The translations under genes and the position numbers were made by a program. A DNA stretch of 61,723 bases from contig DXEG01000029.1 in the NCBI GenBank assembly GCA_019115125.1, positions 1 to 61,723 on the forward strand, given 5' to 3'. A model generated the notes under the pieces. It worked only from the letters and a program-made list of their open reading frames with translations, searched no databases and was not told where the DNA came from. Below are positions 50,412-61,047 of this stretch, piece by piece. The DNA is from Candidatus Blautia faecipullorum (GTDB lineage Bacteria; Bacillota; Clostridia; Lachnospirales; Lachnospiraceae). Within the stretch, counting starts at the first letter, position 1. Every line of letters starts with the position of its first letter.

Positions 50412-50467
50412 GTACTTTTATCAGATCTTTTATCTGTCAGGAATATCCGCGAAACAGAATTTTTTTG

Positions 50468-50496
50468 TTGCCTGGCCTTCCCCGGTGTGCTATAGT
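50468..50496 (+). promoter_or_regulatory. Promoter of the KaiC-like/PEP-synthase-like gene
   Basis: TTGCCT (50468-50473), 17 bases, TATAGT (50491-50496) with a TGC extension before the -10 box. Transcription would start near 50503. Confidence 0.7.
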
Positions 50497-50505
50497 TAAA
50501 GCATC

Positions 50506-50552
50506 AAACAGGACAAAGAGGTTCTCCGCAAGGGTACTTCTTTGTCCTGTTT
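50506..50552 (+). promoter_or_regulatory. Leader hairpin at the predicted 5' mRNA end
   Basis: AAACAGGACAAAG (50506-50518) pairs perfectly with CTTTGTCCTGTTT (50540-50552); the stem extends to 17 pairs with one G-U. It starts within a few bases of the predicted transcription start and is followed by TTTTC and then AAAGGAGG (50558-50565). It may stabilise the mRNA or act as an attenuator. Confidence 0.7.
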
Positions 50553-50569
50553 TCATAAAGGAGGGTTTT

Positions 50570-53143
50570 ATGGCAGCATTTGATAAAATAAACAGCGGTA
50601 TTCCAGGGGTGGATGAAATTCTGGATCACATCCGTCTGGGGGACAACGTAGTATGGCAGGTATCCACCATCGACGAATTCCGTTTTTTCGCGGAGCCCTT
50701 TGCCAGACAGGCGGTAAAAGACGGGCGGAACGTCATTTATATCCGTTTTGCCCAGCATGAGCCTGTATTGAGAGATTTGAGCGGGATCAAGGTATACGAA
50801 TTCAATCCAGACGATGGCTTCGAACCATTTACCGTTGCTATTTACGAGCAGATCACCAGGGAAGGACGCGACGCCTTCTATGTATTCGACTGTCTTTCTG
50901 AGCTTCAGTCTGTATGGTATACGGATCTGATGATGGGGAATTTTTTCCGCGTAACCTGTCCGTATCTTTTTGAGCTGGACACCGTAGCCTATTTTCCTCT
51001 TCTCAGAGGGCGCCATTCCTTTGACGCCGCGGCCAGGATCCGGGATACCACCCAGCTTCTTCTTGACGTTTATACCGGAGACAACGATATATATCTTCAC
51101 CCGCTAAAGGTCTGGAACCGCCACTCCTCCCGTATGTTTCTGCCCCACTGCTGCCGCCGTTCCGACAGCCGTTCCTTCCGGGCGGTGGAGGACGGAGTTG
51201 GTATGAGCAGATATTATCAGACCATACAAAAAGCCTCCGCCGGCTCCCAGGATCAGAATTACGACAGCCACGACCGCTTTTTTGCACAGGCAAAGCTTGA
51301 TTTCTCCCGGGGCTACTTTTCCGAAGATACGGAGGAGCTGATCATAGACAGTACCATGACAAAGGACGATCGGCTGAAAAAACTGGTAAAGCAGTATTTT
51401 ACACCTTCCGATTATTTTATGCTCCGCGACAGGATGATCGGAAGCGGAGCGATCGGAGGCAAAGCCTGCGGTATGCTTCTGGCAAGGAAAATCGCCGAGA
51501 CAGAAATCCCGGAATATCCTTCCCTGAGCGAGCCTCACGACTCTTTTTATATCGGTTCTGATGTATTTTATACTTATATCGTCTCCAACGGCTGCTGGAG
51601 ACTGCGTATCCGGCAGCGCACAAAAGAAGAATATTTCAGCGCGGCAGAGGAACTGCAGGAGCACCTGTCTACCGGAGAATTTCCGGCAAAGATCCGGGAG
51701 CAGTTCTTGAATGTGATCGAATATTTCGGCCAGAGCCCCTTTATCGTCCGCTCCTCCAGTTTTCTGGAGGATGGATTCGGCAACGCCTTCGCCGGAAAAT
51801 ATGAATCAGTGTTCTGCGTCAATCAGGGCAGCCCACAGAAACGGCTGGAAGAATTCGAGCAGGCGGTGCGCACAGTATACGCCAGCACAATGGATTATTC
51901 TGCTCTGGAATACCGTCTGCTCCGGGGGCTGGAGAAGAAGGATGAGCAGATGGCGATCCTGGTACAGCGGGTTTCCGGTTCTTATCAGGGACAGTATTTT
52001 ATGCCCTGCGCCGCCGGGGTGGGATACAGCCACAGCGCCTACAAATGGTATCCTGACATGGATCCGGAGGCGGGAATGCTGCGCATCGTCATGGGACTGG
52101 GCACAAAAGCGGTAGACCGGACGAAAGAGGATTATCCCCGGCTTTCCAACCTGGATCGTCCCTCTGTGACAGTTCTCACCACCGTGGAACAAAAGCATAA
52201 ATTTTCTCAAAGAAATATTGACGTTCTTGACTGCGGGGAAAACCGGCTGAAGGAAATCCCTCTGGAGGAGCTTCTTCCTGTGCTTCCTCTCTGGTATAAA
52301 AAAATGGTTCTGGAGCACGATTATGAAGCGGAATACCGGCTCCGGCAGCTTGGCCGCAACCAGGACGTGTGGTTCGTAAGCTGCCAGCGGCTTCTGGAAA
52401 AACAGGAATTTACATCTCTCATGCAGAAGATCCTGAAAACCCTGGAACGGGTATATAAAAATCCGGTAGATATCGAATATACGGTTAATACAGACGAATC
52501 CGGAGATTTTGTGGTAAATCTTCTTCAGTGCCGGCCCCTTTATATCGGCGAGGCCGGGGAAAAAACAGATCTGAAGAATCTCCGTCTGAAAAAGACCTTT
52601 TTTGATATCCGGGATTCCTCCATGGGACCATCGGGAAAAAGAAAAATCGACGTGGTGGTGCAGGTAGATCCTGTCCTCTATTATCAGTATCCTTACCGGA
52701 AGAAATATGACGCGGCTGCCGCTCTTGGCAAAATAAACCGCCATTACCGGGGAAGCGGCCAAAATCTTCTTCTGATGACTCCCGGACGTATCGGCACTTC
52801 CTCCCCGGAATTAGGCGTTCCGGTAAGCTTCGGCGATATCTCCGGCTTTTCCGCCATCTGCGAGATCTCCGAGAGCCGGGCCGGGTATATGCCGGAATTG
52901 AGCTATGGAAGTCATATGTTCCAGGATCTGGTGGAGGCCCAGATCCTCTACGGGGCTATTTTTAACAACAAAAAAACACTTTCCTATCATCCCGAGCTGT
53001 TCGACGGATGCCCGGATCTGTTTCAGGAGATCTGCCCGGATATGCCGGAGCTTTCCGGCATCATAAAGGTGCATCCCGCGGAATACTTATATTACTGGCT
53101 GGACGCCCTGTCAAACCGGGCTGTCTGCGGAATACCGGAATAA
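50570..53143 (+). CDS. KaiC-like N-terminus fused to PEP-synthase-type ATP-grasp domain
   Basis: This 857-residue protein has two parts. Residues 1-230 resemble a KaiC/RecA-like module (INSGIPGVDEILDHIRLGDN, NVIYIRFAQHEP, DAFYVFDCLSELQ) but have no Walker A loop. From about residue 285 it resembles the PEP/pyruvate-binding ATP-grasp domain of pyruvate phosphate dikinase: SGAIGGKACGMLLARK (about 290), SPFIVRSSSFLEDGFGNAF (about 388), AILVQRVSGSYQGQYFMP. The phosphohistidine swivel motif and PEP-binding barrel of those enzymes are not seen. The end (SFGDISGFSAICEISESRAG, SYGSHMFQDLVEAQI) is unassigned. A nucleotide-dependent phosphotransfer or sensing role is plausible. The ATG at 50570 has AAAGGAGG; the longer frame begins within the promoter. 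Confidence 0.82.
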   Translation: MAAFDKINSGIPGVDEILDHIRLGDNVVWQVSTIDEFRFFAEPFARQAVKDGRNVIYIRFAQHEPVLRDLSGIKVYEFNPDDGFEPFTVAIYEQITREGRDAFYVFDCLSELQSVWYTDLMMGNFFRVTCPYLFELDTVAYFPLLRGRHSFDAAARIRDTTQLLLDVYTGDNDIYLHPLKVWNRHSSRMFLPHCCRRSDSRSFRAVEDGVGMSRYYQTIQKASAGSQDQNYDSHDRFFAQAKLDFSRGYFSEDTEELIIDSTMTKDDRLKKLVKQYFTPSDYFMLRDRMIGSGAIGGKACGMLLARKIAETEIPEYPSLSEPHDSFYIGSDVFYTYIVSNGCWRLRIRQRTKEEYFSAAEELQEHLSTGEFPAKIREQFLNVIEYFGQSPFIVRSSSFLEDGFGNAFAGKYESVFCVNQGSPQKRLEEFEQAVRTVYASTMDYSALEYRLLRGLEKKDEQMAILVQRVSGSYQGQYFMPCAAGVGYSHSAYKWYPDMDPEAGMLRIVMGLGTKAVDRTKEDYPRLSNLDRPSVTVLTTVEQKHKFSQRNIDVLDCGENRLKEIPLEELLPVLPLWYKKMVLEHDYEAEYRLRQLGRNQDVWFVSCQRLLEKQEFTSLMQKILKTLERVYKNPVDIEYTVNTDESGDFVVNLLQCRPLYIGEAGEKTDLKNLRLKKTFFDIRDSSMGPSGKRKIDVVVQVDPVLYYQYPYRKKYDAAAALGKINRHYRGSGQNLLLMTPGRIGTSSPELGVPVSFGDISGFSAICEISESRAGYMPELSYGSHMFQDLVEAQILYGAIFNNKKTLSYHPELFDGCPDLFQEICPDMPELSGIIKVHPAEYLYYWLDALSNRAVCGIPE

Positions 53144-54232: not shown

Positions 54233-56662
54233 TTAAAACAGCGATATTTCTGTAATCGCCGTATCCTGATATTTGCTTCCCGGAAAAACAGATAGTATGC
54301 TGAAGGTTACACTGGAGGTATCTACCGCGGAGCTGAAGGTGATCTCCTGCTGACCGATAAAATCTCCCAGTTCAGCGTCCGTACTGCTTCCGTCTGAAAA
54401 AGTCACCCTTAAAGCCGCAGGTCTGGAATTCTTGTAATAAATATCATTGCTTTTCTGGTACCCGGCGTTTATCCTGAATCCGGACACCCGGTATACGCCG
54501 TTCAGGGTTAGGGTAAGCGCCTCTCCTTCTCCCTGTCCGGCGGCGCTCTCCACCCATGCCGTAGAGCTGCTTCCGTCAATGGCGTTGGACGGGGCGTGCG
54601 CCAGATTATATTGAGGTTCTTCTAAATAAGAGGTTGCCGATACGTCCATGATAACATCAGCGGACACCTGGGGAACTACTGTTTCCGTATGGCTTGTGAC
54701 AGAATTTATACCTAGGGCTGTTTCCCGGTCTGTGGACGAAGAATAGCTGCTGAGGTTTATATAAAGCACCTCTGGGCTGCCGGAGGGAGTCCCCTCAAAG
54801 GTGATCGCCGCCAGACCATCCTCAAGTACAAGCTCATAGGGCCATACATATTGGGTATCAAAAGAATCCACCCGGTTGATTGTGCCGCCGTTGCCATCAA
54901 CGATGAAAAGGTCGGGGCCGTAATATCCGCAGAGATAGAGCGAATCGTTTTCATCAAAAGCGCTGGCGGAAACACATCCCCCAAAATCCCTGTTGGACCA
55001 GACGGAGGTTCCGTCCTTTACATTGAATACCCTGACTGTTCCGTCCTCCACCATGTAGTAGCGGCCGTTGTGAACGCCGATCTCACTGACTCTGTTAAGC
55101 TCTGTACGCTCATAAATGCCTGTCGTATAGGTCCATACAGTACTGCCCGCAGAAGAAACGCCCGTCACCACCCCATATTCATTGTATGGGTCGTCTGTTT
55201 TTCTTTCGAACTTAACTGTTGAAGCAAATGCGCCGTCTTTTTCTTCTGAAGATGAATTTTCCGCAGCCTCTTCAACGGACGCTTTTTCCTCTTCCTCCGC
55301 CTCAGATGGCGTCTCCCCGGCATCCGGCTCTTCTGTATCTGTTTGTGCTGACGATACTTCTTCAGAAGCTTTGTTGTCTTCGTCGGCCTTTTCTGCCAAT
55401 TCGTCTCCGGCATTTTTTTCCTCTGTACCTGTCTCGCCCGACGATTCTTCCTCAGATTTTTCCTTCTCAGAAAATGCGCCCTTGTCCGATCCAAAAATGT
55501 CCGCAACAATTTTCGGTACTGTTTCTGCTGTGGAATCCGTCTTTATCTTCAGAAACAGGTAACCTCCCGCAAGCCCTGAAACGCACAGCAAAAGCACTGC
55601 GAGGATTACCGCCGCGGCAGTCTTCGGCCTCTGTTTCTGGGATATTTTGGGGGGAGAGGGCTTTTTTTCTTCCTCTTCTTTTTGGGGAGCTTTCCTCACA
55701 TAGACCGTTTCGTTCAGAGAATCCTGCGGACAGTCGTTCGTTTCTTTGGAAGCTGCTTTCTCTGATACTTTCAGAAGCGCTCTTTTCATCTCCGCCGCCG
55801 ACTGAAACCTCATCCCAGGTTCCGGAGAGCAGGCCCGCAGAATCACTGCCGCGAATGAACGGGAAGCATTGGCCGGCGCCGGAAGAGGCTCGCCGTTCAG
55901 GCGCCGGCGCAGCGCGTCCGCGCGCGCGTTTGGACTCATGCTCTTCTGTTCTGTGTCCAAAAACGGCATTCTGTTATTATTCATAAAACGATACAGTACC
56001 AGCCCCAGAGAATATATATCTACAGTAGCGTTATAAGGCTGGCCTTTTTCCACTTCCGGAGCGATATAACTGTAGGTACCCTTCCTCGACAATCCTGAGG
56101 TCAGATTCTCCAGTTTTCGGGCAATCCCGAAGTCACCCAGCTTAAAATCACCGAAATCATTGATGAAAATGTTTTCCGGCTTAATGTCGCGATGGATCAC
56201 ATTCCGTTTCGCGCATAATTCAAGAGCCGTACAGATGTCGCATCCAAGTTTGATCACCAGACTCTCTGACACCCCAACGTCCCGGATACAGATGTTAAGC
56301 GGAGTCAGGAGCTCCATGCGGATATAAATGTACCAGCCTATGCTGTTCTCGCGCTCCACCACTTTATAGTCATTGATACTGACAATATTCTGTACTCCTT
56401 TAAAGGTATCCATCAGTTGGATCTCACTGATAAAGCTGTTTACAATTTCCTGAAAATACGTCCTGGTTTCTCTCTGTGAAAGCCCGTCCGCCCGCAGAGA
56501 TTCAATTTCTGATTCCTCCTGGGGAATCGAGATTACTTTAATAGCGGCGCGGCTTTCTACCTGATGCTCTCTGCGCACTGCTTCATAGACAGTTCCGTAA
56601 GAACCCTGCCCAATTTTTCTGACAATCTGCCATTCCGGCCATATACCGGCTAATTTATCCAT
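54233..56662 (-). CDS. Transmembrane Ser/Thr kinase with propeller-like and glycan-binding outer domains
   Basis: This 809-residue Hanks-type kinase has its catalytic domain inside and a large part outside the cell. Kinase landmarks (numbered from the ATG at 56662) are the Gly loop IGQGSYGTVYEA, Lys42, Glu80, HRD 157-159, DFG 177-179 and APE 201-203, all intact. A membrane helix spans about 348-372. An acidic Glu/Ser/Asp linker (392-477) follows, then blades with WTYTTGIYERTELNRV and DGTVRVFNVKDGTSVW, then a discoidin-like NADase-type glycan-binding domain (about 670-809: NLAHAPSNAIDGSSSTAWVE, GFRINAGYQKSN, PGSKYQDTAITEISLF). PASTA repeats are absent. It follows the paralogous kinase by 98 bases. 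The start is set by alignment with the paralog (IWPEW). Confidence 0.9.
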   Translation of the reverse strand: MDKLAGIWPEWQIVRKIGQGSYGTVYEAVRREHQVESRAAIKVISIPQEESEIESLRADGLSQRETRTYFQEIVNSFISEIQLMDTFKGVQNIVSINDYKVVERENSIGWYIYIRMELLTPLNICIRDVGVSESLVIKLGCDICTALELCAKRNVIHRDIKPENIFINDFGDFKLGDFGIARKLENLTSGLSRKGTYSYIAPEVEKGQPYNATVDIYSLGLVLYRFMNNNRMPFLDTEQKSMSPNARADALRRRLNGEPLPAPANASRSFAAVILRACSPEPGMRFQSAAEMKRALLKVSEKAASKETNDCPQDSLNETVYVRKAPQKEEEEKKPSPPKISQKQRPKTAAAVILAVLLLCVSGLAGGYLFLKIKTDSTAETVPKIVADIFGSDKGAFSEKEKSEEESSGETGTEEKNAGDELAEKADEDNKASEEVSSAQTDTEEPDAGETPSEAEEEEKASVEEAAENSSSEEKDGAFASTVKFERKTDDPYNEYGVVTGVSSAGSTVWTYTTGIYERTELNRVSEIGVHNGRYYMVEDGTVRVFNVKDGTSVWSNRDFGGCVSASAFDENDSLYLCGYYGPDLFIVDGNGGTINRVDSFDTQYVWPYELVLEDGLAAITFEGTPSGSPEVLYINLSSYSSSTDRETALGINSVTSHTETVVPQVSADVIMDVSATSYLEEPQYNLAHAPSNAIDGSSSTAWVESAAGQGEGEALTLTLNGVYRVSGFRINAGYQKSNDIYYKNSRPAALRVTFSDGSSTDAELGDFIGQQEITFSSAVDTSSVTFSILSVFPGSKYQDTAITEISLF

Positions 56663-56760
56663 ATTCGTCATACTTCCTGTTCTTTTTATTATTTTTGACA
56701 CCTTAATCTATTGATGCTGTGTCAAATAAGAATTCCTAAAACGGCCCCTGATACGGCTTG

Positions 56761-59082
56761 TCACTGTCCAAGCCAGTTCCCGGAATATTTGATATATGCG
56801 TCGGGATAAAATTTGCGGACATTTTGCAGATTTCCCAGCGCCGCTTCCTTGGCAGAATATACGCCGGCAGCTACCACATACCATTCCACAGGATTCAGAT
56901 TATTCCAGTCAGTCGTAAGGAATACCTGGCCTTCAAAGCCTTTTTCCGATATCTGAGCCGCCATGCTTTGGGCGTCCGCCTGATTTTTAAAGGCCGCGCA
57001 CCAGATTCCGTAAAACGGCGGATGTACACTGTCTGAGGATCCGTCCGGCAGTGATGCCGTCAGTGTGCTTGTATTTGGGGCGCCGCCCTGCCAGCTTCCG
57101 GAATATTTTACATAGGCCCCCGAATATACTGCCTGAACCCCGGCCAGGACACTTTTTGCTTCTTCCTCGGAAAAATATGTGCCGGCAGTTACCACATACC
57201 ATTCTTCGGAATTCAAATTGCTCCAGTCGGCAGTCGCAAATACCTGACCTTGAAATCCTTTTTGTGAAACAGAATCCGCATAAGCCCGGGCCTCCGTACT
57301 GCTCTTCGAAGCGTAGCACCAGATTCCGTAAAATGGAGAGGGCTCAGCCTGTGAATTGGCCGGCTGAGGATTTTCCACCACATGAGTTTCCGCTTCGCAG
57401 ACGATTTGCTCATCCGTATATTGCTTGACTTTTAAAGAAAGCTCCTGATCTTCTTCCAGAAGGGAGGAAGCTTCGCTGATTTTCTGGATCGCGCCTTCAT
57501 AATCACCAGCGGCGGCGCGGTTATCCGCTGTCAAAACCGTCTGGTTTTTAAATTCCGCACAGTACGCTTCATATGTACTCTGATACTCCGAAATATCGCT
57601 GTTTTCACTTCTGGCACCGTCCAGCAGCTCTATCGCGGAAGCATAATCTCCCGCATTTTTAAACGCCTCCGCCCGAGACAATATTTCTTCTTTGTCTGCC
57701 GCTGTCTGCTCTGACTGATCGCCAATGACCCCCGTCTGTTCATTATCCTGTGTTTCATTTTCGGTATTTTCCGCGATTGCCGCTGTCCGGCTGTCTCCGG
57801 CCTGATCCGTCGTCAAATCGGTCTGTCCATCTTCCTGTGTTTTGTTTTCTGTATTTTCCGCAATTTTTTCTGTCCGTCTGTCTCCATCCTGAGTCTTATC
57901 AAAAAATAGGTAGTTACCGGCAGCAAAAATAATCAGACAAACTGCGGCTGTTGCTGCAAATACAGAAAGGGAAGTTCTTAGAATGTTTCTTTTCTGAGCT
58001 TTATGAGCAGATTGTTTGGATTTTGGCGGGGAAGGCTCTGGAGAAGTGGAATCGACCTTCCGTGCATACATGGTCCGGTCCGTATACTCGTTTTTTTCCT
58101 CAGATTCTTTATTGTTTTTCGCCACGGCTTCTATATCGCCATTCTTTGTCGACCCGCTCTCCTTCACCGCTTCCTTTTCCATATGGAGCAGAGCGTTTTT
58201 CATCGCTGACGCTGACGCAAACCGCTGATGCGGATTATAGGCACAGGCGCGGAGAAGGAGCCTGGCCATTTCCGGTGAAGCGCCGCAGGGCGGCGGAATC
58301 GGTTCTCCGCTCATCCGTCTCCTCACTGCGTTCATGCGTTCATTGGGGCTGAGAAGCTGCCTGTCTTCCGTCAAAAAAGGAAGACGGTTCCTGTTCAAAA
58401 GCCGGTATAAGACCAGCCCCAGAGAATAAATATCCGCCCTGGCGTCATAGGGCAGACCTTTTTCCACCTCCGGCGCCATATAACTGAAGGTTCCCTTCCG
58501 GGACATCCCGGCGGTGAGATTTTCCAGGCGGCGGGCAATCCCAAAGTCGCCTAATTTGAAATTTCCGAAAGTATTTACAAAAATATTTTCTGGTTTCACA
58601 TCTCGATGGATAACATTGCGTTTCTCACATATCTCCAGCGCCGTACAGATATCACAGCCAAGTCTGATCACTTCCCGCTCTGAAAGTTCTCTGCCGGCGA
58701 TATAGCTGTTCAGCGGTGTAAGCAGCTCCATCCGGATATAGATATCCCACCCGATATCCTTCTGTCTTTCAGCCACCTTATAATCCTCTATGCTGACAAT
58801 ATTTTGAACGCCCTTGAATGAATCCATGATCTGAATTTCCGCAAGAAATTCATCCACGACCTTCCGGAGATAAGACAAGGTCTCCTCCTCCGTCAGTCCT
58901 TCCAGCCGCAGGGACGCAATTTCCGACTGATCCAGGGGAATAGAGATTACTTTCACGGCGGCATGGCTTTCCATTTGGTATTCACGGCGCACAGCCTCGT
59001 ACACCCGTCCAAAGGTCCCTCTGCCGATCTGTTTTATAGTTTTCCATTCCGGCCATATATTTCTCAGAATGTCCTCGTCCAT
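56761..59082 (-). CDS. Transmembrane Ser/Thr kinase with two SPOR-like outer repeats
   Basis: This 773-residue kinase is a close paralog of its neighbour. Numbered from the ATG at 59082, the Gly loop is IGRGTFGRVYEA, with Lys44, Glu82, HRD 159-161, DFG 179-181 and APE 204-206 intact. The membrane helix is at about 367-390. The linker has two copies of a 29-residue unit with IAENTENxTQ. TPR-like helices follow (about 464-550: AEAFKNAGDYASAIELLD, NRAAAGDYEGAIQKISEA). Two SPOR-like repeats end the protein (about 583-664 and 689-773), each with FYGIWC, a KGFxGQVF segment, WY(V)VxAGxY and a YxKYSG(S/N)W end. SPOR domains bind glycan strands stripped of peptides, so a cell-wall signal is likely. 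GGAG lies nine bases before the ATG. Confidence 0.9.
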   Translation of the reverse strand: MDEDILRNIWPEWKTIKQIGRGTFGRVYEAVRREYQMESHAAVKVISIPLDQSEIASLRLEGLTEEETLSYLRKVVDEFLAEIQIMDSFKGVQNIVSIEDYKVAERQKDIGWDIYIRMELLTPLNSYIAGRELSEREVIRLGCDICTALEICEKRNVIHRDVKPENIFVNTFGNFKLGDFGIARRLENLTAGMSRKGTFSYMAPEVEKGLPYDARADIYSLGLVLYRLLNRNRLPFLTEDRQLLSPNERMNAVRRRMSGEPIPPPCGASPEMARLLLRACAYNPHQRFASASAMKNALLHMEKEAVKESGSTKNGDIEAVAKNNKESEEKNEYTDRTMYARKVDSTSPEPSPPKSKQSAHKAQKRNILRTSLSVFAATAAVCLIIFAAGNYLFFDKTQDGDRRTEKIAENTENKTQEDGQTDLTTDQAGDSRTAAIAENTENETQDNEQTGVIGDQSEQTAADKEEILSRAEAFKNAGDYASAIELLDGARSENSDISEYQSTYEAYCAEFKNQTVLTADNRAAAGDYEGAIQKISEASSLLEEDQELSLKVKQYTDEQIVCEAETHVVENPQPANSQAEPSPFYGIWCYASKSSTEARAYADSVSQKGFQGQVFATADWSNLNSEEWYVVTAGTYFSEEEAKSVLAGVQAVYSGAYVKYSGSWQGGAPNTSTLTASLPDGSSDSVHPPFYGIWCAAFKNQADAQSMAAQISEKGFEGQVFLTTDWNNLNPVEWYVVAAGVYSAKEAALGNLQNVRKFYPDAYIKYSGNWLGQ

Positions 59083-59133
59083 TCTTCCGTTCTCCTTTTT
59101 GAGTTTTTCTTCTTCCGGGATCAATGGAGCGGT

Positions 59134-59301
59134 TCAAACTGAATTTTTTTGATATCCAGACTCGCTGCTGCTCTCCAAAACTCCGATCCTCTTTACTTCC
59201 TTCTGCGCTTCATCATATGTGTAAATTACAAACTGATACAGATGATCTACTGACCGATATCCTCTTTCCACTGCCTCTAGGCGTAACTGACATCGCAGCT
59301 T
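59134..59301 (-). pseudogene. Possible C-terminal gene remnant
   Basis: An open frame of 55 codons without a good start reads LEAVERGYRSVDHLYQFVIY followed by TYDEAQKEVKRIGVLESSSE and stops at 59134. Composition is protein-like, a TGA precedes it, and no ribosome site or ATG is present. It may be the tail of a lost gene. I do not recognise the family. Confidence 0.3.
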
Positions 59302-59325: not shown

Positions 59326-60996
59326 CTACACTATCTTTGCCATACATTCTTTCCGATAGAAAGCCACCCCGCATTTCAGAATATTCTGATACCCCTCATT
59401 GCGCAGCACCTCCTCATATTTTTTCTCATCAATCTGACTCAAGGCTTCTCTGCACTTTTCTTCCAACTCCTGATATGACCTGGCCACTTTTATCTCAATA
59501 ATCACAGCCCTTCCCCTCACACTGGGGTATCTTACCAGAATATCCGGCCTGCCGATTCCTGATTCCCGATTAGACTGTACGATATAATTTCCGATATTTT
59601 TCAGCATTCCAGCCAAAAAACCATGGTAGTAGCTTTCCTGATAATCGTAAAAACTGATGGTCTCCATCAGATTTGCAGAGAGAATCTCCGAGAATTTTTC
59701 CGCATCGCCGCTTAGCAGACTATCGTACAGAGGAGTAAGTTCCTTTTTATCGGTCTGCCTGTCAAACCAGCGAAGAACCGCATTTTTATAGATATATCTT
59801 ACTTCATTGTTTGGAATAGCCATCTCTATATAAATCGTCTCCCCCTCCTGATATTCCCGTATCTTTTTCAGGTATCCGGTGAAAAATAAAAAGTTCCAGA
59901 GATTATCCTGAGTGGAGTCCATATCATCATAAGTAATATCCTCATGAACAGGCTTGCTGATAGTCATTCCTGCAATCAGCGACTCGATTTCCTGTTTCAC
60001 GGAAATATCCGCACGCTCGATCAGCGTCCGCACAATGCTGTTGGAACTTGTATTAGTCCAGTAAGGCTTGGCAAATGCTTTTTTATCGTAGTAACAGGAA
60101 TCTGCATAATTAATTACACTCCATGGATTATAAACTTCTGTCTCTCCGAATCGGTATCCGTCATACCATTTTCTGACAGTCTCCAGATTTTCCTCCAGGC
60201 CGTATTCTTTCAGCATCTGCTCCACTTCATCCGGAGTAAAGCCGAAATGCTCCGCATAAGAAATAGCTGTAATGGACATAATCTTTAAATTGTTAAGACC
60301 GGTAAAGATAGATTCCTTGCTGATACGCAGACATCCTGTAATTACAGCAAATTCCAAATTGTCATTGGTCTTTAAAGCAGATTCGAACAATGCGCGTATC
60401 AGCGCGACCATCTTATCATAAAATCCCTCAAAATACGCATTCTCCAGGGGCACATCATACTCGTCAATAAGAATTACTGCTTTTCTGCCATATATCCTGC
60501 AAAGGCATTCAGAAAGGAATTTCAAAGCTACCAGATATTCGTCTGGTTCTGCTTTCATCTCAATAAACCGAAGAAATTTTTCTCTGTCCGCATCATAGTC
60601 CAAGCTTTCCAGTATTTGGTCATGCATCCTGTACTCTCTGGATATTTCTTCTTTCAGGCAATAAAAGGCGCTGTCATACGTCGCCTGTTTCATAGACTTC
60701 AAAGTAAGCATGATAACAGGATATTTCCCCATATGATCAAGGTACCGTTCTCCTGTATCCATGATCTTTGTTCCTGCAAAAAGCTTCGGAATATCCTTTT
60801 GCTCTATGTCCAGAAAATATCTAAGCATACTCATATTCAGCGTCTTACCGAAGCGTCGCGGGCGGGTAAAAAGATTGACCTCTCCTTTCCTGTCCAGCAG
60901 TTCTTTGATAAACAATGTCTTATCTATATAGTAATACTTTCCCTCTCGCATTTTTCTGAAATTATCTATTCCAATCGGCAGAGGTTTCCATATCAT
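59326..60996 (-). CDS. AAA-ATPase-like protein with PD-(D/E)XK nuclease-like C-terminus
   Basis: This 556-residue protein belongs to a family common in gut Clostridia and Bacteroidetes (PF09820 plus PF08011). The P-loop is FTRPRRFGKTLNMSMLRYFL and the Walker B is AVILIDEYDVPLENAY. TGCLRISKESIFTGLNNLK is the family middle box. The C-terminal nuclease-like fold has GRPDILVRYP and VIIEIKVARSYQELEEKCREALSQI (the D...ExK core). No partner gene is adjacent. Function is unproven; mobile-element or defence links have been guessed for the family. The ATG at 60996 has GGAGG nine bases upstream; the ATG at 61011 lies inside that site. Confidence 0.9.
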   Translation of the reverse strand: MIWKPLPIGIDNFRKMREGKYYYIDKTLFIKELLDRKGEVNLFTRPRRFGKTLNMSMLRYFLDIEQKDIPKLFAGTKIMDTGERYLDHMGKYPVIMLTLKSMKQATYDSAFYCLKEEISREYRMHDQILESLDYDADREKFLRFIEMKAEPDEYLVALKFLSECLCRIYGRKAVILIDEYDVPLENAYFEGFYDKMVALIRALFESALKTNDNLEFAVITGCLRISKESIFTGLNNLKIMSITAISYAEHFGFTPDEVEQMLKEYGLEENLETVRKWYDGYRFGETEVYNPWSVINYADSCYYDKKAFAKPYWTNTSSNSIVRTLIERADISVKQEIESLIAGMTISKPVHEDITYDDMDSTQDNLWNFLFFTGYLKKIREYQEGETIYIEMAIPNNEVRYIYKNAVLRWFDRQTDKKELTPLYDSLLSGDAEKFSEILSANLMETISFYDYQESYYHGFLAGMLKNIGNYIVQSNRESGIGRPDILVRYPSVRGRAVIIEIKVARSYQELEEKCREALSQIDEKKYEEVLRNEGYQNILKCGVAFYRKECMAKIV

Positions 60997-61047
60997 AAAA
61001 AACACCTCCATACATGGGTGGATTCTAAATTCTTCCTCTTAGATTTT

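Follow-up and report, generated by a model that had tools for sequence, protein, structure and literature searches.

Background

Wall sensing by kinases in Gram-positive bacteria is known mainly through PASTA domains. The PASTA kinases PrkC, StkP, and PknB contain a Hanks-type kinase domain, one membrane helix, and repeated small domains on the opposite side of the membrane. A review of the field agrees that PASTA is the main kinase route of wall sensing, and its accessible part does not bring in SPOR domains (PMC6213207). A similar layout has been described for kinases of Firmicutes with an N-terminal kinase domain, a membrane helix, and a small C-terminal YARHG domain, which is thought to bind peptidoglycan; the accessible part of that paper notes YARHG and SPOR within one protein and names no kinase-SPOR protein (PMC3355149). 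In conflict systems, NPCBM, a putative carbohydrate-binding module, is fused to S/T/Y kinases, which have been proposed to sense invaders inside cells (PMC8195603, accessible part). SPOR has been described as a wall-binding domain (PMC5817068, accessible part).

The window analyzed here, the whole stretch of 61,723 nucleotides from Candidatus Blautia faecipullorum, contains a gene for a protein that carries 2 SPOR repeats where the described kinases carry PASTA repeats or YARHG. This protein, which we refer to as the SPOR kinase, is very likely a membrane receptor in which a kinase is combined with SPOR-fold modules. No report of a kinase with an outer SPOR domain was found in the openly licensed PMC literature, as represented mostly by titles and the first lines of abstracts. 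The combination is visible in precomputed Pfam lists and is thus present in the databases, where most of the entries are unnamed.

Gene and domain organization

The gene and its parts, all of which are located on the minus strand, are as follows:

56761..59082, minus strand: SPOR receptor kinase gene, 773 amino acids, ATG at 59082, stop included, AAGGAG upstream
59092..59097, minus strand: ribosome-binding-like AAGGAG, 9 nt upstream of the start codon
58195..59043, minus strand: Ser/Thr kinase domain with intact catalytic motifs, residues 14-296, Pfam match (E 6.7e-42) and genome match at the same coordinates
57904..57993, minus strand: single membrane helix, residues 364-393, hydrophobic stretch and model helix
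57385..57717, minus strand: predicted outer helical stretch, TPR-like, residues 456-566
57100..57333, minus strand: SPOR repeat 1, residues 584-661
56782..57015, minus strand: SPOR repeat 2, residues 690-767

The boundaries of the gene had been given exactly by the sequence-only reading; its coding strand is the minus strand, and the plus-strand frame at the same position is interrupted by stops. The kinase core had been described as intact, and all of the catalytic motifs searched for were present, including GRGTFG at residues 20-25, K44, HRDVKPEN from residue 159, DFG at 179, and APE at 203. The Hanks-type hallmarks (Gly-loop, VAIK Lys, HRD, DFG, and APE) were thus complete, and the Pfam Pkinase model matched with 144.1 bits. 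The protein contains one hydrophobic stretch only (residues 371-389), located within the model helix at 364-393, which agrees with the single membrane helix proposed earlier. By eye, the sequence is basic ahead of this helix and acidic behind it, which would place the kinase domain on the cytosolic side and the SPOR repeats outside.

The segment between the membrane helix and the repeats had been read as TPR-like. Its helical nature was borne out by 5 model helices in residues 456-566, with block pLDDT values mostly of 81-92, and TPR models match 27 of the best 120 of the 7820 related kinases described below, some of them together with NPCBM or LRR. Its assignment to TPR is weaker, as the TPR_14 model scored 16.5 bits against a cut-off of 23.5.

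No PASTA domain was found among the 10 Pfam matches of the SPOR kinase (up to E 1), and the NCBIfam model PknB_PASTA_kin (NF033483) scored 148.5 bits, far short of its cut-off of 450. What looks like a membrane receptor kinase without PASTA was correctly recognized. The suggestion that SPOR serves as an alternative to PASTA fared less well, since the same genome encodes a kinase with 3 PASTA repeats directly after a PP2C phosphatase gene, and the SPOR kinase is thus an addition rather than a replacement.

Fold of the repeats

The 2 C-terminal repeats were 52% identical to each other, and the motifs by which they had been recognized occur in both, with FYGIWC at residues 584 and 690, WYVV at 628 and 734, and YSGxW at 660 and 766. 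The SPOR model PF05036 matched the full protein in 2 stretches with a score of 62.6 bits (E 4.4e-17; Pfam cut-off 21), and each repeat scored above the cut-off on its own, with 31.6 bits for the first and 42.5 bits for the second. The match is far beyond chance.

The second repeat, which was also modeled separately, showed the order β-α-β-β-α-β with a pLDDT of 87.5, and 5 of the 6 best realigned structures were SPOR entries; the same order was seen in the model of the first repeat. The proposed likeness to SPOR was thus recovered both by the profile and by the predicted fold, which proved to be that of SPOR and not an unrelated one. The fold and the Pfam family are common to the kinase repeats and to the canonical SPOR domains of CwlC, RlpA, FtsN, DamX, and DedD. 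According to the alignment, the loop between β2 and β3, with the motif TTDWSNLN, is longer in the kinase repeats than in canonical SPOR domains; this conserved loop was poorly modeled, with pLDDT values below 50 at residues 727-730 and a block mean of 76 in the single-repeat model.

The putative binding face of the module

A structural reference for ligand binding is the complex of RlpA with peptide-free glycan (PMC6895207, accessible part). Four residues, Q270, R302, R309, and R311, make direct polar contacts with the glycan through their side chains, and of these Q270 alone is highly conserved in sequence. The contacts are mostly made to the backbone, and the basic patch is formed by differing residues across SPOR domains. 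Aromatic residues are also found in binders of denuded glycan, such as FtsN W283 and DamX W416 (PMC6895207, accessible part).

To compare these positions, we used an alignment of 41 modules, consisting of the 2 repeats in the window and 39 of the 41 loci found in a scan of genome contigs; L042, whose match is interrupted by a stop, was omitted, as was L054. The scan used the loop pattern [VLI][TS][TS][DE]WSNLN alone, so that conservation of the loop in the 39 loci follows by construction, while that of the Trp column in strand 1 and of the Lys and Tyr columns does not. A further set of 100 modules was cut out with a regular expression in which several columns were fixed while Gln was allowed at the key column.

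The column of RlpA Q270, in strand 1, contained Trp in 40 of the 41 modules, Phe in one, and Gln in none. By eye, Phe also occupies this column in L016 and L017, which are more distant and were retrieved with a profile. In contrast, DamX, FtsN, DedD, and the SPOR domain of the organism's own amidase have Gln at the position of the Trp in the kinase repeats (4 of 4, in both alignments). The latter protein (L068, contig 60, 5145-5912, minus strand) contains an Amidase_3 domain and a canonical, Gln-type SPOR domain, and served as an internal control. Among 29 canonical SPOR domains from genomes of the family, 28 had Gln and the remaining one was gapped at the column, although these loci were drawn from the best-scoring Pfam matches and the control is biased in favor of Gln; 24 of the 29 were located in amidase-like frames, as judged with a loose motif. 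We refer to the modules with the strand-1 Trp as W-type.

Other columns of the putative face differ as well. The position of a canonical Phe was occupied by Ser in 26 modules and by Phe in only 3. The positions of RlpA R309 and R311 contained Val, Cys, or Ala and Thr, Ser, or Ala, respectively, whereas the organism's own amidase has Lys and Gln. With regard to the basic patch, a strand-4 Lys (K765 in the second repeat) was yet invariant in all 41 modules, as was a Tyr on the same strand (Y763). The column of W734 contained Trp in 35 modules and Tyr in 6, and FtsN W283 fell at this column in one of the 2 alignments only. The kinase repeats are thus distinguished from canonical SPOR domains by the Trp, the 2 changed basic positions in β3, the longer loop, and their location on a kinase. 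With the face residues assigned by alignment rather than on coordinates, the face looks aromatic with a single Lys, and would be compatible with sugar binding without carrying the canonical signature.

These residues bear directly on the ligand named in the sequence-only reading, in which the repeats bind peptide-free glycan at the septum in the manner of canonical SPOR domains and report on the state of division or of the wall. The residues do not suggest such a ligand, which we consider doubtful: the highly conserved Gln is missing in all 41 modules, although it is retained in DamX, FtsN, DedD, the organism's own amidase, and nearly all of the control domains, and 2 of the 3 RlpA arginines are replaced by the residues listed above. 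The fold, on the other hand, is that of CwlC, RlpA, DedD, and DamX, an Amidase_3 protein with a SPOR domain, belonging to the enzyme class that strips peptides from the strands, is encoded in the genome as well, and with contacts made mostly to the backbone and a variable basic patch, K765, which is invariant, could fill in (PMC6895207, accessible part). Since FtsN W283 and DamX W416 are also aromatic, the change to Trp does not exclude ordinary binding of peptidoglycan. Taken together, sensing of the septum is unlikely, but has a real chance of being correct. If the W-type modules form a class of their own, they would call into question how far the rule that SPOR means denuded glycan can be extended.

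Distribution of the module

A search with the outer part of the SPOR kinase identified 92 proteins, which were assigned to classes by hand. Kinase models matched 20 of these, and the zinc ribbon PF13240 matched 15. The architecture is thus not the isolated oddity that it had seemed from the window. The number of module copies was 1 in 78 proteins, 2 in 13, and 4 in a single protein. Two relatives with SPOR modules, P0022 and P0025, lack the aspartates of HRD and DFG and are possible pseudokinase receptors.

The module is uncommon across whole genomes. It was found in 8 of 150 genomes of the family, including that of the window, with strong matches in 4, and in 8 of 64 genomes of the genus, again including the organism's own. 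In the other 7 genus genomes, the frames examined were not kinases; the frame in G207 was cut at the contig end, and the weak locus L083 of G197 fell outside this check. The 41 loci of the contig scan belong to Lachnospiraceae, other Clostridia, and Coriobacteriia/Atopobiaceae, representing 2 phyla according to the record titles. The SPOR model matched 39 of the 41 loci, with L023 representing a short C-terminal piece. None of the 41 frames, 3 of which run off the contig or locus edge, contained the kinase motif, and kinase models were absent from the 25 families shown of the 41 Pfam families on these loci. The kinase-SPOR form is therefore found mainly in the large, mostly unnamed protein set.

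The remaining 72 of the 92 proteins are devoid of kinase models, many of them being nonkinase surface proteins, and the last copy of the module is located at most 12 residues from the C-terminus in 84 of the 92. This would also be expected if the modules served only to position or tether the kinase in the wall, with the signal being read elsewhere in the protein or by partners, and SPOR is known as a targeting module (PMC6895207 and PMC5817068, accessible parts). However, related kinases bear other domains in the outer part, and what remains of the outer part here is a helical stretch and low-confidence linkers, which leaves little else to read a signal. We give anchoring an outside chance.

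Outer domains of the related kinases

A query with the kinase domain retrieved 8000 scored candidates, 7820 of which passed E 1e-30. The outer ends were typed by hand from precomputed Pfam matches for the best 120 of these 7820 relatives, 112 of which were new, and the class of other ends may hide NPCBM domains too weak for Pfam. One stretch resembling a membrane helix was present in 109 of the 112 new relatives, and the motif WPEW in 107. The most frequent recognized outer domain was NPCBM (PF08305), which was found in 46 of the best 120, followed by SPOR in 7 (8 with P0024, found via the outer-part search), LRR in 5, discoidin (PF25302) in 3, YARHG in 2, and SH3 in 1; no model matched past the kinase domain in 32. 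The kinase domains of the NPCBM kinases with the WPEW motif were 63-68% identical to that of the SPOR kinase, WPEW and a single helix being present in nearly all, and they differ in that NPCBM takes the place of SPOR.

The family is also widespread within the genus, with a family kinase detected at E 1e-60 in 56 of 64 genomes, mostly with about 50% identity to the query. The closest kinase in the other genus genomes (G179) was 64% identical, and in this protein NPCBM replaces SPOR. Another WPEW-family kinase is encoded on contig 63 of the organism's own genome (L067, 4100-5866, plus strand); it is 43% identical over 407 residues, and its outer part matches no Pfam model.

Two quick trees, both with long branches, were inferred. 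In the larger tree, with 111 rows (96 of the 112 new kinases, 13 SPOR kinases, and 2 of the organism's own), the starred branches forced at least 8 changes in the NPCBM label, whereas in a thinned tree with 66 of the 111 rows only 1 change was forced and most rows fell in no group. It is therefore likely, rather than proven, that outer ends have been exchanged or lost within the WPEW kinase family. The SPOR label required 5 changes on the thinned tree, yet a single clade of the 11 SPOR rows among the 66 was not rejected (AU p 0.425), and repeated gain of SPOR inside the family is for this reason not claimed. Outside the family, the kinase domains of P0039 and P0083 were 34-41% identical to those of the WPEW SPOR kinases, and the kinase of P0092 looks different, by eye, at its N-terminus, which suggests that these 3 proteins may represent separate kinase-SPOR fusions.

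This wider family, which is large and little described, is a more interesting object than the single kinase. If its varied and often sugar-type outer domains function as such, abundant gut Clostridia may read many glycans via Ser/Thr phosphorylation.

The neighboring kinase and adjacent genes

A second receptor kinase gene follows that for the SPOR kinase:

54233..56701, minus strand: tandem paralogous receptor kinase, 822 amino acids from GTG, with a PQQ-like and NADase-type discoidin outer part

It lies downstream in the same orientation, separated by 59 nt, and the 2 proteins are 55% identical over 405 residues. The discoidin domain was matched by both Pfam and NCBIfam, while PQQ_2 remained below its cut-off. 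The metagenomic protein P0073 contains a PQQ-discoidin part like that of the paralogue (35% identity over 367 amino acids, E 9e-60) fused to a SPOR module, and 6 further proteins of the 92 match part of the PQQ-discoidin region. Such fusions, together with the tandem arrangement, suggest that the 2 kinases may share a ligand or target structure.

The paralogue could also be a partner in itself. The RNP-like fold is used in binding of many kinds, and the modules, whose loop exceeds that of canonical SPOR domains in length, might interact with a protein or with one another rather than with a sugar, one candidate being the discoidin part of the neighboring kinase. The presence of the module on many different surface proteins in 2 phyla is better suited to a common ligand, and binding to a protein partner has only a slim chance.

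Immediately upstream of the SPOR kinase gene ends a short frame (59124-59260, minus strand), which may represent the 3' end of a further gene for a surface protein; by eye, the N-terminal extension of the relatives P0002 and P0003 resembles it. Further upstream is a gene for an AAA-ATPase-like/PDDEXK_9 protein (59326-61011, minus strand).

Glycan sensing as a possible function

The explanation that we favor, tentatively and with chances just short of even, is that the SPOR kinase is a receptor for a glycan of the envelope or the surroundings, which acts via its W-type modules and clustering. On the inside, the protein would function as a normal Hanks-type kinase domain of a transmembrane receptor Ser/Thr kinase. 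On the outside, a helical stalk would carry the 2 divergent, W-type modules, which in tandem would most likely bind the glycan lengthwise. Binding would gather the receptors, and the kinase domains may then phosphorylate each other and, subsequently, cytosolic targets. The neighboring discoidin-type kinase would probably read a related ligand, and the 2 may act jointly.

In favor of a glycan receptor, we count the kinase motifs, the Pfam matches to kinase and SPOR, the SPOR fold, and the changed site, as well as NPCBM as a common outer end of the relatives, the NPCBM kinase in G179, and the P0073 fusion. Against it, we count the poorly modeled loop, the assignment of the face by alignment only, and the aromatic residues that are also found in binders of denuded glycan. 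Furthermore, an NPCBM partner need not mean a sugar outside the cell, since NPCBM kinases have been placed inside cells (PMC8195603, accessible part). Of the original idea that the kinase reads the state of the wall, a SPOR-like receptor kinase without PASTA is what remains, while peptide-free glycan as the ligand, the substitution for PASTA, and the isolated case do not stand in their original form.

A broader proposal, which we consider possible but doubtful, is that W-type SPOR domains form a distinct sugar-reading class, and that their kinases are members of an extensive receptor-kinase system of Clostridia whose outer ends (NPCBM, discoidin, YARHG, and SPOR) are exchangeable and mostly bind sugars. 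Tandem receptors in it, among them the pair in the window, would be complementary in specificity. The counterpart in logic of such a system would be the lectin and LysM receptor kinases of plants.

The NPCBM fusions of conflict systems resemble the SPOR kinase in that a kinase is combined with a lectin-type domain, and they would make the SPOR kinase an immunity kinase with its outer or C-terminal domain as the invader sensor; the likeness is one of description, which speaks neither for nor against kinship with the WPEW kinases, and those fusions are described as intracellular sensors, unlike the SPOR part with its predicted location outside (PMC8195603, accessible part). PADLOC models, which have no curated cut-off, do match the kinase half, with the anti-phage models MAD6 and PD-T4-6 (mad6, E 7.3e-57, 298 of 659 positions; PDLC04042, most of a 292-position kinase-only model). 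A role in conflict is nevertheless very improbable, given the membrane helix between kinase and SPOR, the limits of the mad6 match (residues 13-335), the location of the SPOR part outside all 25 PADLOC stretches shown of 34, none of which extends beyond residue 502, and the lack of a PADLOC match to the upstream AAA/PDDEXK gene. Origin from a mobile element was rejected: phage records had no match to the outer part, a single locus came from the IMG/VR scan, with a match of 28 residues, and none of the 278 matching plasmid records covered 80% of the query, the 8 listed being confined to residues 4-320.

Other kinase genes and genes in the window

The genome contains 10 kinase-domain matches in total. 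Another kinase cluster is located on contig 54, where a 1098-amino-acid kinase with discoidin PF25302 (L066, 4094-7390, minus strand) and an FHA-domain kinase are found in the same stretch. Within the window, the gene at 50465-53143 on the plus strand encodes a protein of 892 amino acids with PPDK_N (pyruvate phosphate dikinase, AMP/ATP-binding) at residues 329-699 as the single match above the cut-off.
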